This document shows positions 4,114 to 17,136 of a stretch of 23,183 nucleotides of DNA, one piece after another. The notes beneath the pieces are model-generated. The model saw only the letters and a program-made list of their open reading frames with translations, was not told where the DNA came from and ran no database searches. Origin of the DNA: a virus. The stretch covers positions 1-23,183 of IMG/VR virus record IMGVR_UViG_3300027759_000439; one strand, given 5' to 3'. Each line of letters starts with the position of its first letter. Within the stretch, counting starts at the first letter, position 1. The position numbers and the translations under genes are program-made.

Positions 4114-4323
4114 TTAGTCGACTATTTGCAAATCGGTATAAATCACTTGACCGGCATTGCGTTTAACTATGGCAATTTCATTGCATTTGCGTGTTTCTAT
4201 TGTCCAGTAATCTGGTTTTTGCACGACAAATTCGGTGGTTACAGTCAGGTTTAAATCAGACTGCAGCATTGCTAATAGTGTTTTCTTATCAGCAAGTGGT
4301 AATTCTCTTATTTTATCTAGCAT
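4114..4323 (-). CDS. Small protein of unknown function (69 aa)
   Basis: A 69-residue protein. The N-terminal helix pair (MLDKIRELPLADKKTLLAML) is followed by a beta-rich part with CNEIAIVKRNAGQVIY. The ATG at 4323 has AAGAGA 4-5 bases upstream. The opening is like that of its neighbour at 4387-4662, which also starts with a short helix, an acidic turn and a Lys-rich helix, so the pair may have a common origin. No family is recognised. Confidence 0.7.
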   Translation of the reverse strand: MLDKIRELPLADKKTLLAMLQSDLNLTVTTEFVVQKPDYWTIETRKCNEIAIVKRNAGQVIYTDLQIVD

Positions 4324-4342
4324 AGTATCTCTTTATAATAAA

Positions 4343-4379
4343 TTTACTAATAGCATCTCAAGCGAAATGCTACTATAAA
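4343..4379. repeat. Hairpin between two small genes
   Basis: TAGCAT (4351-4356) pairs with ATGCTA (4367-4372), and TTTA (4343-4346) with TAAA (4376-4379) beyond a small internal loop. It lies just after the stop of the gene at 4387-4662. A weak minus-strand promoter (TTGAGA 4356-4361, 18 bp, TATAAA 4332-4337) overlaps it. It could be an attenuator or a processing site. Confidence 0.4.
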
Positions 4380-4386
4380 CTCACTA

Positions 4387-4662
4387 TTAGGCGAATTTGG
4401 TAACTACAGGTTTACTAGGTTTGCGATTTGATTTAATCGCTTTAGCGCCCACTGGGTTGCGGAGCAATTCTAATTTTTGTTCTAATTTCGCAATGCGTTC
4501 TGCTTTTTTGGCAGCACGGAGAGCAGCAGAATTTTGTTTGCGTTGGAAATTGGCGTCACGATTAGCAGCAACATGCTCTTTAATCATTAATTTAATAGAT
4601 TTTACTAAATTGCGTTTTTCGGCAACGGTGAGGTTTTGGATTGTATCAATATATGAGAACAT
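4387..4662 (-). CDS. Basic coiled-coil protein, possibly nucleic-acid-binding
   Basis: A 91-residue, strongly basic protein. After a short N-terminal helix (residues 1-30) comes a long Ala-, Lys- and Arg-rich helix (RAAKKAERIAKLEQKLELL, about 48-67) with leucines at heptad spacing, then a basic tail with KSNRKPSKPVV. Such a composition fits binding to DNA, RNA or ribosomes; this is inference. The ATG at 4662 has GAAAGAAAA before it. It is the first gene after the near-consensus promoter P4 and should be strongly expressed early. Confidence 0.75.
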   Translation of the reverse strand: MFSYIDTIQNLTVAEKRNLVKSIKLMIKEHVAANRDANFQRKQNSAALRAAKKAERIAKLEQKLELLRNPVGAKAIKSNRKPSKPVVTKFA

Positions 4663-4709
4663 AATTTTCTTTCGTTTAATAAGTGTTAATGAATTACTAC
4701 AATAAGACT

Positions 4710-4737
4710 ATTATACACGAATTGGCGGCATTGTCAA
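4710..4737 (-). promoter_or_regulatory. Consensus sigma70 promoter P4
   Basis: Minus-strand TTGACA (4732-4737), 16 bp, then TATAAT (4710-4715), with both hexamers perfect. Start of transcription near 4703, 40 bases before the ATG at 4662. It follows the C-rich stretch that probably ends the upstream transcript. Confidence 0.85.
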
Positions 4738-13712: not shown

Positions 13713-14557
13713 CAAAATTCCTCTATTACTTCCATTAAGTTTTTCAGTTTGTGTTCAATAAAATAATTCAACAACTTACCTTTAGCAGGTTTTGTTTCTT
13801 CATAGGTATTTATAATTTTGTTTTTAATATCACCTGGAATGTTTCTAAGGTCAATTAATGCTTGGTTACGAGAAAAACCATTTCTAGCATTTTCATCTTC
13901 CCAATCACCATAATTTTCAGCCAAATACTTTTCAATAACTTTCTGTGTAATTGGTTTCTGCCGTAAGTCACGGACAAAGCAATCCGATGGCGAAAAGATA
14001 TTGGGTATACCGTCACCTTTATCTCCACGAATAATCTTCTCTTTGAGTTCTAGGAGTGGATCCACGGACTTAACATATTTCTTTTGTGATGGATTGTATT
14101 GTTTAACATTATCACCATACATTTGTAATTGTAGGAAATCACCATCACTTGAAAGAATTAAAACTTTTTCATGTGGTGCATGACGTGGTACTAGTGTACC
14201 AATAATGTCATCTGCTTCAGCGCCTTCGACATCAATTACCTTATATGGAAAATTATCTTTTAATTCTTGTTTTAGTTTACCAAGAATATCGAAAATTAAA
14301 TGCCAATCTAAGTCCGATTTATCACGGTTCTTTTTACGATTTGCTTTATAGAAAGGAAAGAATTCTTTGCGCCAGTATTTACGGTTATCACAACACAATA
14401 CAACTTCACCATACTCCGCTTTAAAATTCTTTACATGAGTACGAATGATGTTTAACACCATATGCCGAATTAGGCTTTCTTCTAATTTGCCTTTATGATT
14501 AGCAATTTGTGCCATCAGACCAGCAAGTAATACTTGATTTAAGTCAATGAGAATCAT
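13712..14557 (-). CDS. rnh: RNase H / 5'-3' exonuclease of the T4 rnh (FEN) type
   Basis: A 281-residue FEN-family nuclease, close to T4 RNase H (305). The acidic metal ligands are all present: LIDLNQ (D5), CCDNRKYWR (D57), EGAEADDIIG (E114, D116, D117), SSDGDF (D138, D140) and RGDKGDGIPNI (D179, D182), the last beside the helix-hairpin-helix that grips DNA. It should remove RNA primers and adjacent DNA from lagging-strand fragments. The primase is encoded at 19920-20930. The ATG at 14557 gives the usual N-terminal aspartate strand. It has its own promoter P8. Confidence 0.9.
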   Translation of the reverse strand: MILIDLNQVLLAGLMAQIANHKGKLEESLIRHMVLNIIRTHVKNFKAEYGEVVLCCDNRKYWRKEFFPFYKANRKKNRDKSDLDWHLIFDILGKLKQELKDNFPYKVIDVEGAEADDIIGTLVPRHAPHEKVLILSSDGDFLQLQMYGDNVKQYNPSQKKYVKSVDPLLELKEKIIRGDKGDGIPNIFSPSDCFVRDLRQKPITQKVIEKYLAENYGDWEDENARNGFSRNQALIDLRNIPGDIKNKIINTYEETKPAKGKLLNYFIEHKLKNLMEVIEEF

Positions 14558-14616: not shown

Positions 14617-14935
14617 ACGTTTTTTGAACAAAGTCGTCAGATGTGGTAGTACGCTTTGCAAGTATACCAAACCAATTTTGTGTTATTAAGTTTGAAATGT
14701 ATTCGTATGGATCGGCAAAAATGGCTTCAAATTTATCAACATCATATAATTTACCATCTTCTTGTTCCTTGAATAATATTACATGATATTCATCACCCAT
14801 GGAATTGCCGCCAATTTTGTCACCAGGGTTTTTATATGTTGCGCCTTCAATATGTAAATCATCTTTCTTTTCGCCAGGCAAAAAGAAGATGGCATCGTGG
14901 CCGTCTTTACTAAATTCTTTTAAGAAGTCTAACAT
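14594..14935 (-). CDS. Protein of unknown function (113 aa)
   Basis: A 113-residue protein: MLDFLKEFSKDGHDAIFFLP, a middle with GDKIGGNSMGDEYHVILFKE, and a C-terminal helix (DDFVQKTFDKLMKI). The alternation of strands and helices suggests a small alpha/beta fold. AAAGGA lies 5 bases before the ATG at 14935, which overlaps the stop of the SegE-like gene (ATGTTAG). The last codons overlap promoter P8. No family is recognised. Confidence 0.75.
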   Translation of the reverse strand: MLDFLKEFSKDGHDAIFFLPGEKKDDLHIEGATYKNPGDKIGGNSMGDEYHVILFKEQEDGKLYDVDKFEAIFADPYEYISNLITQNWFGILAKRTTTSDDFVQKTFDKLMKI

Positions 14936-15333
14936 TGTAATCCTTTAATGTGTGATTTTCTAACTCGTACCATTATCCATGTGTTATAGTAATCTTCTGA
15001 TTCCATTACACCACGAACAAACTGTTCTTTTGCTTCGAGATAACCACATACACCTTTAGATTTGCATAAGTGTAGTATTTCACGGACAAAGTTTTTATGT
15101 CCTAATTGTAACACATCTTTCTGTAAGATGTCACTACTTCCGTAGTAAGTTTGCCAGTTCGAACTGGCTTTATACCGTTTCTTTTTACCTTTGACTTGTT
15201 TGGTTTTGGTAGAATAGAAAAATTTCTTACCTATGTATTTTTTACCATTCGTCAGATTAGTTATCTGATACACGAACCCGTAATTATCACCAATCAAGTC
15301 TTCCGTAAAATCTTTACCATTATATTGCCACAT
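14929..15333 (-). CDS. SegE-like GIY-YIG endonuclease-type protein
   Basis: A 134-residue protein with a GIY-YIG core: GFVYQITNLTNGKKYIGKKF (19-38), WQTYYGSS (60-67), and a following helix with LEAKEQFVRGV (E99 or E102 as catalytic glutamate). It matches the SegE-like GIY-YIG group of T4-like phages. T4 Seg proteins are free-standing homing endonucleases that spread between phage genomes; this shorter one has only the catalytic domain and no clear DNA-recognition domain. The ATG at 15333 has AAAGGA 8 bases upstream, held in a hairpin (next entry). It stands between an oxygenase-like gene and the replication genes, a typical homing position. Confidence 0.82.
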   Translation of the reverse strand: MWQYNGKDFTEDLIGDNYGFVYQITNLTNGKKYIGKKFFYSTKTKQVKGKKKRYKASSNWQTYYGSSDILQKDVLQLGHKNFVREILHLCKSKGVCGYLEAKEQFVRGVMESEDYYNTWIMVRVRKSHIKGLQC

Positions 15334-15335
15334 AC

Positions 15336-15363
15336 AAATAATCCTTTATTTGGATTATTTATA
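15336..15363 (-). promoter_or_regulatory. Hairpin hiding a ribosome-binding site, overlapped by a T4-type late promoter
   Basis: AAATAATCC (15336-15344) pairs perfectly with GGATTATTT (15352-15360), with a 7-base loop. On the minus strand the AAAGGA ribosome-binding site of the SegE-like gene spans loop and stem. TATAAATA, the T4 late promoter consensus, lies at 15356-15363 on the same strand. By the T4 spacing its transcript would begin near 15350 and lack the upstream arm, so the site would be free. Confidence 0.6.
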
Positions 15364-15964
15364 GTCCAAACAATATTCGTTTTGCATCTTCAAACGATAT
15401 ACTTTCTGAAAATGTTGGCCTTAAAGTTAACACGATTCTTTCATTTTTTGAACATCTATTATCGAAATCGTGATAAATGTCAGTATTAAATAATATACAT
15501 TCACCTTGTAATGCAACCATTGTTTTTTTTGGAATATGATTTTCTTTTACAAAGCCACTTACTTCTCTGGATTTATTTTTCCAATCCAAACCAACAATTT
15601 CATAATTTTTTAATTGTTCATCATCATACCAACTTGTGACACACTTATTATCCAATATTTTTATTGTATAGTTAAAGCTTATTTTGTTATCTACTCCATC
15701 TTTATGAGCTCGATAATAATAACCTGGTTTTGTTACAAATAAAGAAACTCTTGTTTTCTTTAATGGTATTTTTTTGGTGATTGGACAAAGATTTAATATT
15801 TTTTCAGAAACATCTAAACTAAATTTGTGGTGAGTAAAATTTTTTGTAAAAGTTTCTTTTAAAGATTCTTCTAAAGATATATCTATTATGTTCGATATAT
15901 TTTCATGAGAAAATCTAATATAGTATGGGCTACAATCTTCAATTATATTGTAAATTAATCCCAT
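15359..15964 (-). CDS. 2OG-Fe(II) oxygenase-like protein
   Basis: A 201-residue protein whose second half fits the double-stranded beta-helix of 2-oxoglutarate/Fe(II) dioxygenases. YYRAHKDG (H87, D89) gives the HxD iron ligands, IYHDFDNR (H165) the distal histidine, and ERIVLTLR (R176 or R182) the arginine for 2-oxoglutarate. Such phage enzymes may hydroxylate proteins, nucleotides or small molecules; the substrate here is unknown. It is richer in Lys, Ile and Asn than its neighbours, which hints at separate acquisition. The ATG at 15964 overlaps the zinc-ribbon gene by 10 bases, with GGAG very close, so coupling is likely. Confidence 0.72.
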   Translation of the reverse strand: MGLIYNIIEDCSPYYIRFSHENISNIIDISLEESLKETFTKNFTHHKFSLDVSEKILNLCPITKKIPLKKTRVSLFVTKPGYYYRAHKDGVDNKISFNYTIKILDNKCVTSWYDDEQLKNYEIVGLDWKNKSREVSGFVKENHIPKKTMVALQGECILFNTDIYHDFDNRCSKNERIVLTLRPTFSESISFEDAKRILFGL

Positions 15965-16140
15965 TCTCCAGTATCCAAATCATCTTCATCCTCTATATAG
16001 TCTTCCGATAATTCTTCAATCATTTCACCGCAGAATGGACAATGTTCAGGTAAATCTTGAGAAACCATTTCTTGCATAAACTGTACGCTATATGTTGATT
16101 CACAATTTGTGCATTCACCATTTAAGTTTTTATTTGTCAT
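15955..16140 (-). CDS. Small zinc-ribbon protein (61 aa)
   Basis: A 61-residue protein with two CxxC pairs (C10-C13 and C34-C37), as in a zinc ribbon, followed by a very acidic tail (MIEELSEDYIEDEDDLDTGE). It could bind a nucleic acid or a replication protein. Similar proteins occur in T4-like cyanophages, from memory. The ATG at 16140 has AAGGAA 6 bases upstream, and it follows nrdB by 9 bases. Confidence 0.75.
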   Translation of the reverse strand: MTNKNLNGECTNCESTYSVQFMQEMVSQDLPEHCPFCGEMIEELSEDYIEDEDDLDTGEWD

Positions 16141-16149
16141 TATAATTCC

Positions 16150-17136
16150 TTAATGAGCCCACACATCACTCCAATTTCCTGATAAAGCTCCTTTTGCATA
16201 ATCAGTAGCACGATTTTCAAAGAAATTGGTATGAGTTGGTGCGTTAATCATTTCCTCTACCCATGGTAAAGGATTGCGTTTCACTTTATAGATGCCTTTA
16301 AGACCAAGAGAAATCAATCTGCGGTCAGCAATATAACGAATATATTTTTTAACTTCTTCAGCAGTTAGTCCTTCCATTTGATTTACACCAAAAGCAAGGT
16401 CGATAAATTTATCTTCAAGTTGAACCATCTTTTCAGCAATGGTATAAATTTTAGATTTCAACTCATCATTCCAAATTTCACGGTTTTCTTCAATGTAGGT
16501 TCTAAACAATTTAATCATATTCTCAGCGTGCATCGTTTCATCGACAATTGACCAAGTAATGATTTGACCCATACCTTTCATCTTACCGTGGCGTGGGAAA
16601 TTTAGCAACATAATAAAAGAAGAAAATAATTGCATGCCTTCAGTAAATGCTGAGAACACAGCAATATGTGTAGCAGTATTTTCTTTTGTGGTATTCTTAG
16701 CAGAAATATCGAGAATGTAATCGTGTTTCTCTTTCATTTCTGCATATTCTAAAAATTCGTTATATGTTGTTTCTGGTAAACCCAAAGTTTCAATCAAATG
16801 AGAATATGCGGCAACGTGTAATGCTTCACGAGCAGCGAAACCGGCCAACATCATACGGACTTCTGGTTGTGGAAAATATGGTAAATAGTTTTTAATATAA
16901 CCACCAGCAACGTCAATATCACCTTGTGTGAAGAAACGAAAGATGTGAGTTAGAAATTGTTTTTCTTCTTTGCTTAATTTCTTTTTCCAATCTTTTACAT
17001 CCTCAAGCATTGGCACTTCTGTATGTAACCAATGAGATTGCTCATGTTTCAGCCAAGCATCGTATGCCCAAGGATAATTGAATGGCTTGAAATATGTTCT
17101 TTCTTCGGTAATATCTAATTCTGTTTTTTTAATCAT
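16150..17136 (-). CDS. nrdB: Ribonucleotide reductase class I, beta subunit (NrdB)
   Basis: A 328-residue beta subunit, which makes the radical for reduction of ribonucleotides. The diiron ligands are D73, E104, H107 (REALHVAAY), E166, E200 and H203 (VDETMH). Their spacing matches E. coli NrdB at D84-E115, E204-E238 and E238-H241. Tyr111, at the place of the radical Tyr122, is present, so it should use a tyrosyl radical. The protein is shorter than E. coli NrdB (376). It follows nrdA and the Fe-S carrier with gaps of 3-10 bases, so all three are one transcript. The ATG at 17136 has a weak ribosome-binding site. Confidence 0.95.
   Translation of the reverse strand: MIKKTELDITEERTYFKPFNYPWAYDAWLKHEQSHWLHTEVPMLEDVKDWKKKLSKEEKQFLTHIFRFFTQGDIDVAGGYIKNYLPYFPQPEVRMMLAGFAAREALHVAAYSHLIETLGLPETTYNEFLEYAEMKEKHDYILDISAKNTTKENTATHIAVFSAFTEGMQLFSSFIMLLNFPRHGKMKGMGQIITWSIVDETMHAENMIKLFRTYIEENREIWNDELKSKIYTIAEKMVQLEDKFIDLAFGVNQMEGLTAEEVKKYIRYIADRRLISLGLKGIYKVKRNPLPWVEEMINAPTHTNFFENRATDYAKGALSGNWSDVWAH

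Follow-up and report, generated by a model that had tools for sequence, protein, structure and literature searches.

We propose, at a probability of roughly 0.55, that a 29-nt element directly before the SegE-like endonuclease gene of an uncultured, T4-like phage of a freshwater clade is a T4-type late translation-initiation region that was brought into the nrd operon together with a putative oxygenase gene, and that SegE is consequently made mainly late, with a lower, coupled contribution from read-through transcripts. Ribosome-binding-site hairpins that are cut by late promoters are already known; what is unusual here is the origin, in that the switch came along with a foreign gene, which now occupies the former start codon of the nuclease gene. 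The window, by which we mean the whole stretch of DNA analysed, is the 23-kb virus record IMGVR_UViG_3300027759_000439 (23,183 nt), a fragment that covers an early/replication-type region. The features concerned are as follows; handles beginning with L denote related contigs.

16150..17136, minus strand: nrdB, the operon's upstream gene (PF00268, E 7e-78)
15955..16140, minus strand: small zinc-ribbon-like gene (weak Zn_ribbon_8 match, below cut-off)
15955..15964, minus strand: ATGGGATTAA, where the zinc-ribbon stop overlaps the ancestral start of SegE, at present the start of the oxygenase (75 of 78 relatives; empty site of L003)
15359..15964, minus strand: putative 2OG-Fe(II) oxygenase, the inserted gene, 201 aa (not in empty-site relatives; homologues in L082-L085 and L146)
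15359-15361, minus strand: oxygenase stop TAA, inside the 5' arm (sequence)
15356..15363, minus strand: TATAAATA, candidate late promoter within the hairpin 5' arm, clade motif NATAAATA (exact match; ATAAATA enrichment)
15352..15360, minus strand: 5' arm of the stem, AAATAATCC (sequence and folding; identical in L082, L083 and L084)
15350, minus strand: predicted late transcription start (from T4 spacing)
15345..15351, minus strand: loop AAATAAA (RNA folding)
15342..15347, minus strand: Shine-Dalgarno AAAGGA of the SegE-like gene, its GGA paired in the stem (sequence)
15336..15344, minus strand: 3' arm of the stem, GGATTATTT (sequence and folding)
15331-15333, minus strand: ATG start of the SegE-like gene (sequence)
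14929..15333, minus strand: SegE-like GIY-YIG gene, 134 aa, new start ATG-TGG (PF19835, E 2e-38)

The hairpin and its candidate late promoter

The minus strand of the SegE start region reads CTATAAATAATCCAAATAAAGGATTATTTGTATGTGG, and on this strand TTTGGACTATAAATAATCCAAATAAAGGATTATTTGTATGTGGCAATAT holds the 9-bp stem, the AAAGGA and TATAAATA; re-reading it confirmed the coordinates that the original prediction had assigned to stem, loop, Shine-Dalgarno (SD) sequence, ATG, octamer and oxygenase stop. The stem is a perfect 9 bp in the DNA and extends to 11-12 bp with one G-U pair as RNA, in which form its 5' arm takes in the whole octamer and its 3' arm reaches the A of the AUG. RNA folding predicts a minimum free energy of -11.8 kcal/mol (z -4.5), a stability that 0 of 200 shuffled sequences equalled and that agrees with the earlier claim of an AAAGGA sequestered by the stem. 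Stems of at least 9 bp with loops of 3-12 nt number 2 in the window against 1.8 expected from shuffles, so a stem of this kind is by itself no rarity, and what counts as evidence is that stem, SD/ribosome-binding site and promoter motif coincide. The exact stem pattern matches 32 stretches in IMG/VR, which by our own estimate is roughly a chance number, among them the identical contig L082/L097 and the carriers L083 and L084.

Is the octamer more than a product of base composition? The original prediction had warned that it may occur a few times by chance, and for the full octamer this stands (2 copies in the window versus 3.0 expected), but its core, ATAAATA, does not litter the sequence: it is depleted, with 2 copies against 14.6 expected from dinucleotide shuffles. 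When all 7-mers were ranked by their excess within 60 nt upstream of genes, ATAAATA came first, with 38 occurrences there versus 2.9 expected in six relatives plus the window and 24 versus 1.6 expected in Methylophilales phage Melnitz. Among 11 further contigs, 104 of 183 ATAAATA copies lie upstream of genes (8.1 expected), and over 1,969 upstream regions there are 161 sense and 17 antisense copies. Judged by the other 7-mers of like composition, whose upstream copies have a median near 58, chance may account for about a third of the ATAAATA copies found upstream. By this enrichment, the T4-type late promoter motif supposed at the outset is a real element of the phage clade. In Melnitz it stands upstream of the annotated major capsid protein, tail sheath, baseplate wedge and tail fibre genes; the Melnitz annotations include the late-transcription coactivator, late sigma factor and sliding clamp (gp33, gp55 and gp45), while the window is a fragment. 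Any base may precede ATAAATA in these phages (A 46, T 45, G 30, C 25), as in NATAAATA of cyanophage S-PM2 (PMC2984593), and the CATAAATA that L084 carries where the window has TATAAATA therefore leaves the clade motif unbroken. Additionally, the distance of 22 nt from ATAAATA to ATG is typical in the clade. The enrichment before genes, the depletion elsewhere and the structural genes of Melnitz make a late promoter plausible, and we regard a functional one at this very site as likely; the early/replication setting of the window lowers the prior for it. A second copy of TATAAATA is found at 13807-13814 of the window, within the RNase H gene and about 94 nt before the DUF6433 gene; the 13 other relatives that match best have either TATAAATA or CATAAATA at this place, and it could be a late promoter or reflect merely coding constraint.

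The geometry of the element is that of T4-type cut hairpins: the SD and the A of the AUG are predicted to be held in a helix on the long transcript, and the late consensus is placed such that RNA starting at 15350, as T4 spacing would have it, drops the 5' arm. To open the SD, read-through RNA of three lengths is predicted to need 7.3-8.2 kcal/mol, versus 0.7-0.9 kcal/mol for RNA beginning at 15350, and geometry and folding are thus in accord with the proposal that a late transcript would lack the upstream arm and expose the site.

A putative oxygenase gene on the old SegE start codon

The original prediction was to fall if the stem and TATAAATA proved not conserved in relatives that have the SegE gene, and taken literally this is what the comparison gives. 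Among the 78 close relatives whose upstream sequence is readable, 75 have no oxygenase, hairpin or ATAAATA, because the element belongs to an oxygenase insertion that is absent there; every contig with the oxygenase beside SegE, in contrast, keeps the stem and ATAAATA (within CATAAATA in L084). In the 75, the SegE start (typically ATGGGACTAAAC-TGGCAA) overlaps the stop of the zinc-ribbon gene, and in the other three (L045, L075 and L080) different sequence lies between the two genes. In the window, the ancestral ATGGGATTAA start now begins the oxygenase, SegE begins at a new ATG that immediately precedes the conserved TGG codon, and the hairpin and promoter motif form the far end of the insert. 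The 5' ends of the oxygenase and SegE genes (window 15938-15964 and 15319-15333) share the 9-mer CAATATAAT, which flanks the insert, a microhomology that may be a mark of how the insertion arose.

The inserted protein gives weak matches to the Asp_Arg_Hydrox/2OG profiles and has an HxD...H...R pattern; its structure model is poor (pLDDT 46), and the dioxygenase-like Foldseek matches that it yields (best E 0.009) are a hint only. Together, these weak profile and fold hints and the pattern suggest a 2OG-Fe(II) oxygenase. No relative was found among INPHARED phages or, by sequence, in the PDB. In IMG/VR the oxygenase occurs in the identical contig L082 and in four relatives, of which L083 (oxygenase 90% identical) and L084 (83%) have the whole arrangement as in the window, while the more distant oxygenases of L085 (48%) and L146 (42%) stand on other contigs beside tRNA-like sequence, without the hairpin.

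How did the arrangement spread? Contig L003 has an nrdB that is 99% identical to that of the window, yet its site is empty, and divergence between the two rises sharply from about 16,100, in the zinc-ribbon gene, a point that we take from the sequences to be a recombination edge. The nrdB tree, built from 65 rows, scatters the carriers over three positions among relatives whose site is empty; its supported branches require three changes, and 0 bootstrap trees unite the oxygenase carriers. Over about 1 kb from ATAAATA, identity between L084 and the window is mostly 97-100%, whereas the L084 oxygenase is 78-90% identical. Our reading of these sequence relations is that the insertion probably arose once and was then exchanged between lineages. 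The 29-nt element, from ATAAATA through the base preceding ATG, is identical in L082, L083 and L084, i.e. in all three other contigs with the oxygenase beside SegE; in L083 and L084 it lies within recently shared tracts, so its identity there speaks for persistence and is no proof of selection, and the three copies, being alike, show no covariation. We put forward only tentatively the broader idea that oxygenase, late promoter, hairpin, ribosome-binding site and ATG make up a portable module, which would have taken a core gene's start codon and re-timed that gene from co-translation with the nrd operon to hairpin-gated late expression, and which would be exchanged by recombination at the SegE 5' junction.

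The junction into which the oxygenase was inserted seems to be a hot spot of insertion. Between its zinc-ribbon and SegE genes, L045 carries a second GIY-YIG type endonuclease gene in antisense orientation (4124-4714, minus strand; phrog_314, E 4e-22), and L080 has another inserted ORF (1906-2298). One position further upstream, between nrdB and the zinc-ribbon gene, L084 has a fatty acid desaturase gene (1316-2035; PF00487), and several other relatives have 0.7-1.5 kb of extra sequence.

Late transcription, coupling and other readings

The sequence of events that we favor starts from a SegE that was probably co-translated with the nrd operon: the overlap with the zinc-ribbon stop is seen in the relatives, and coupling across it is the presumed consequence. 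By comparison with the empty sites, the insertion then put the oxygenase ORF on the old SegE start codon and gave SegE a new ATG behind an SD of its own. On transcripts that come through the oxygenase this SD is predicted to fold into the hairpin, and the NATAAATA promoter in the 5' arm would, given the motif enrichment and T4 spacing, yield RNA from near 15350 that lacks the arm and leaves the SD exposed. SegE would therefore come mainly from late transcripts and to a lesser, coupled extent from read-through, when a ribosome ending the oxygenase melts the arm. Promoter activity, the timing of the nrd and SegE transcripts, and coupling are what we infer here. The late switch is supported by a motif enriched before genes, depleted elsewhere and at a typical distance from its ATG; by the difference in opening cost between read-through and late RNA; by an element unchanged in three nrdB lineages with a layout proven in T4-type phages; and by similar cut hairpins, with other stem sequences, at a head-tail adaptor gene of relatives.

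Against it stands the position of the oxygenase stop in the 5' arm, as a result of which translation of the oxygenase would open the hairpin. In the original prediction, read-through from the nrd genes was to keep the site shut, and this part is not supported, because a ribosome terminating at this stop would unfold the stem and leave a predicted opening cost of 0.4-0.5 kcal/mol; folding with the ribosome in place gives substance to the weakness that the prediction had itself named, namely melting of the stem by ribosomes at the oxygenase stop. That read-through shuts the site is doubtful; it would do so only if the oxygenase were poorly translated.

The same observations feed the strongest competing explanation, translational coupling without a promoter, in which SegE depends on ribosomes finishing the oxygenase, the coupling broken by the insertion has been restored, and TATAAATA is a by-product of a stop codon in an A/T-rich arm. 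Besides the low opening cost with a ribosome on the stop, this explanation can point to the 25 nt from oxygenase stop to SegE start, to the start/stop overlap of the empty-site relatives, which is the usual coupling layout, to mobE of phage Aeh1, which likewise joins a hairpin with stop/start coupling, and to the stop itself, which in the window, L083 and L084 alike falls inside the arm, despite the 1-nt deletion that shifts it in L084. What it leaves unexplained is why ATAAATA should be intact, given that the window otherwise avoids this motif and that it is kept beside that very deletion, and we consider coupling without a promoter possible but on the unlikely side. Lower still do we place the idea that stem and octamer are regulatory bystanders which merely came with the donor junction, SegE simply using a new ribosome-binding site. 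The chance expectations for stems of this size (about 1.8 per window) and for the octamer (2 found versus 3.0) suit it, as does the CAATATAAT microhomology, and a single insertion origin with recent sharing would account for the identity of the element; however, that so stable a stem (z -4.5) falls precisely on the SD, with a clade late motif in the arm that T4 spacing would remove, makes an unlikely triple coincidence, and we judge this idea rather improbable. A transcription terminator or RNA-processing hairpin, as might be expected of a stem-loop immediately behind the stop codon of the oxygenase, we reject as very improbable, for the stem has two G-C pairs only and no T run, the terminator scan missed it, no Rfam family comes near threshold, and it is too short for RNase III.

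Related systems and further observations in the clade

The mechanism in which a hairpin over the ribosome-binding site is cut by a late promoter is established for I-TevI and gene e, has been shown in part for mobE, and has been proposed for I-TevII, I-TevIII and segB (PMC2988022, PMC3014915). The I-TevI logic invoked by the original prediction is matched by the published hairpins of I-TevI, mobE, segB and gene e (PMC2988022, PMC3014915), and the present case, on sequence evidence, would work like I-TevI, mobE and gene e. Its nearest likeness is mobE of Aeromonas phage Aeh1: both are endonuclease genes in an nrd operon with a hairpin at the ribosome-binding site and an adjacent late promoter, and the stop/start arrangement that suggests coupling of mobE is also found here; mobE, however, is an HNH gene interrupting nrdA, whereas here the gene is a GIY-YIG core gene and the hairpin arrived with a cargo gene (PMC2988022). 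T4 I-TevI, as well as I-TevII, I-TevIII and segB, shares a site that is hidden on read-through RNA and freed on late RNA without the upstream arm, but I-TevI is intron-borne, while here a translated gene lies upstream and its stop codon falls in the arm (PMC2988022, PMC3014915). In the leaders of T4 gene e and soc the late promoter likewise lies within the 5' strand of an inhibitory structure, in their case with no link to an insertion (PMC3014915). The late promoter of cyanophages S-PM2 and Syn9, NATAAATA, has the same 7-base core and free first base and stands before structural genes (PMC2984593); here the phages are of an uncultured freshwater clade and the promoter is a candidate read from the DNA. 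Lastly, nuclease genes are described at phage exchange boundaries (PMC10448857), and here too a nuclease gene lies at the junction of recombining segments (L084 and L003); the gene in the window differs in being near-universal and is known from sequence alone.

If the tentative idea of a portable module is true, the window and L003 would be a natural example of how inserted cargo rewires regulation, its filled and empty sites being near-isogenic. The two contigs form a before-and-after pair, L003 without and the window with the insert, in which a translation start has been replaced, such that the origin of this kind of control, beyond its end state, becomes open to study. The T4 hairpin/late-promoter switch would also be extended to an uncultured freshwater clade. 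A note of caution goes with this, as such hairpins may gate through coupling to the upstream gene as much as through promoter choice.

There are suggestive signs that the clade uses the T4 layout more than once. A short hairpin that pairs the bases just after ATAAATA with the SD precedes the head-tail adaptor gene (phrog_211) in three related contigs, G001 (at 127165), G008 (14005) and G010 (30402), with stem sequences that differ, and a like hairpin follows ATAAATA at a gene for a 114-aa protein in G001 and G010; in more distant orthologues of these two genes the hairpin was not found. For promoters at most 26 nt from a start, pooled with the window excluded, we count 7 strong own-arm pairings versus 1.9 in permutations (p 0.0008), strong cases that include orthologues; the fresh set alone gives p 0.08. 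The start GGATTATTTATATG in Melnitz resembles the 3' arm of the window, and we rejected it as a relative of that arm, as it belongs to the bidirectional late-promoter region of a tail gene.

The SegE-like protein itself scores 131.8 bits against PF19835 (SegE_GIY-YIG; curated cut-off 25), and its GIY-YIG, E and N motif residues are invariant in nine relatives including Melnitz, which is the closest named relative by this protein (51.5% identity) and has the gene order primase-nrdA-nrdB-SegE. The gene stands behind nrdB in 147 of 148 relatives' loci, a count from two overlapping search sets in which some contigs appear twice; with such near-universal rather than sporadic presence, the label of a mobile, free-standing homing endonuclease is unwarranted. 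Identity at synonymous codons is raised to 0.74-0.80, versus about 0.55, at the zinc-ribbon/SegE overlap, also in loci picked by nrdB. We considered local homogenisation of SegE by homing and set it aside, since the rise is mainly at the overlap and overlap constraint suffices to explain it. The family of window 14929-15333 is labelled 'NAD synthetase' by PHROG 447 and in many phage records; Pfam has it as a SegE GIY-YIG endonuclease, and the former label looks like a propagated mislabel.
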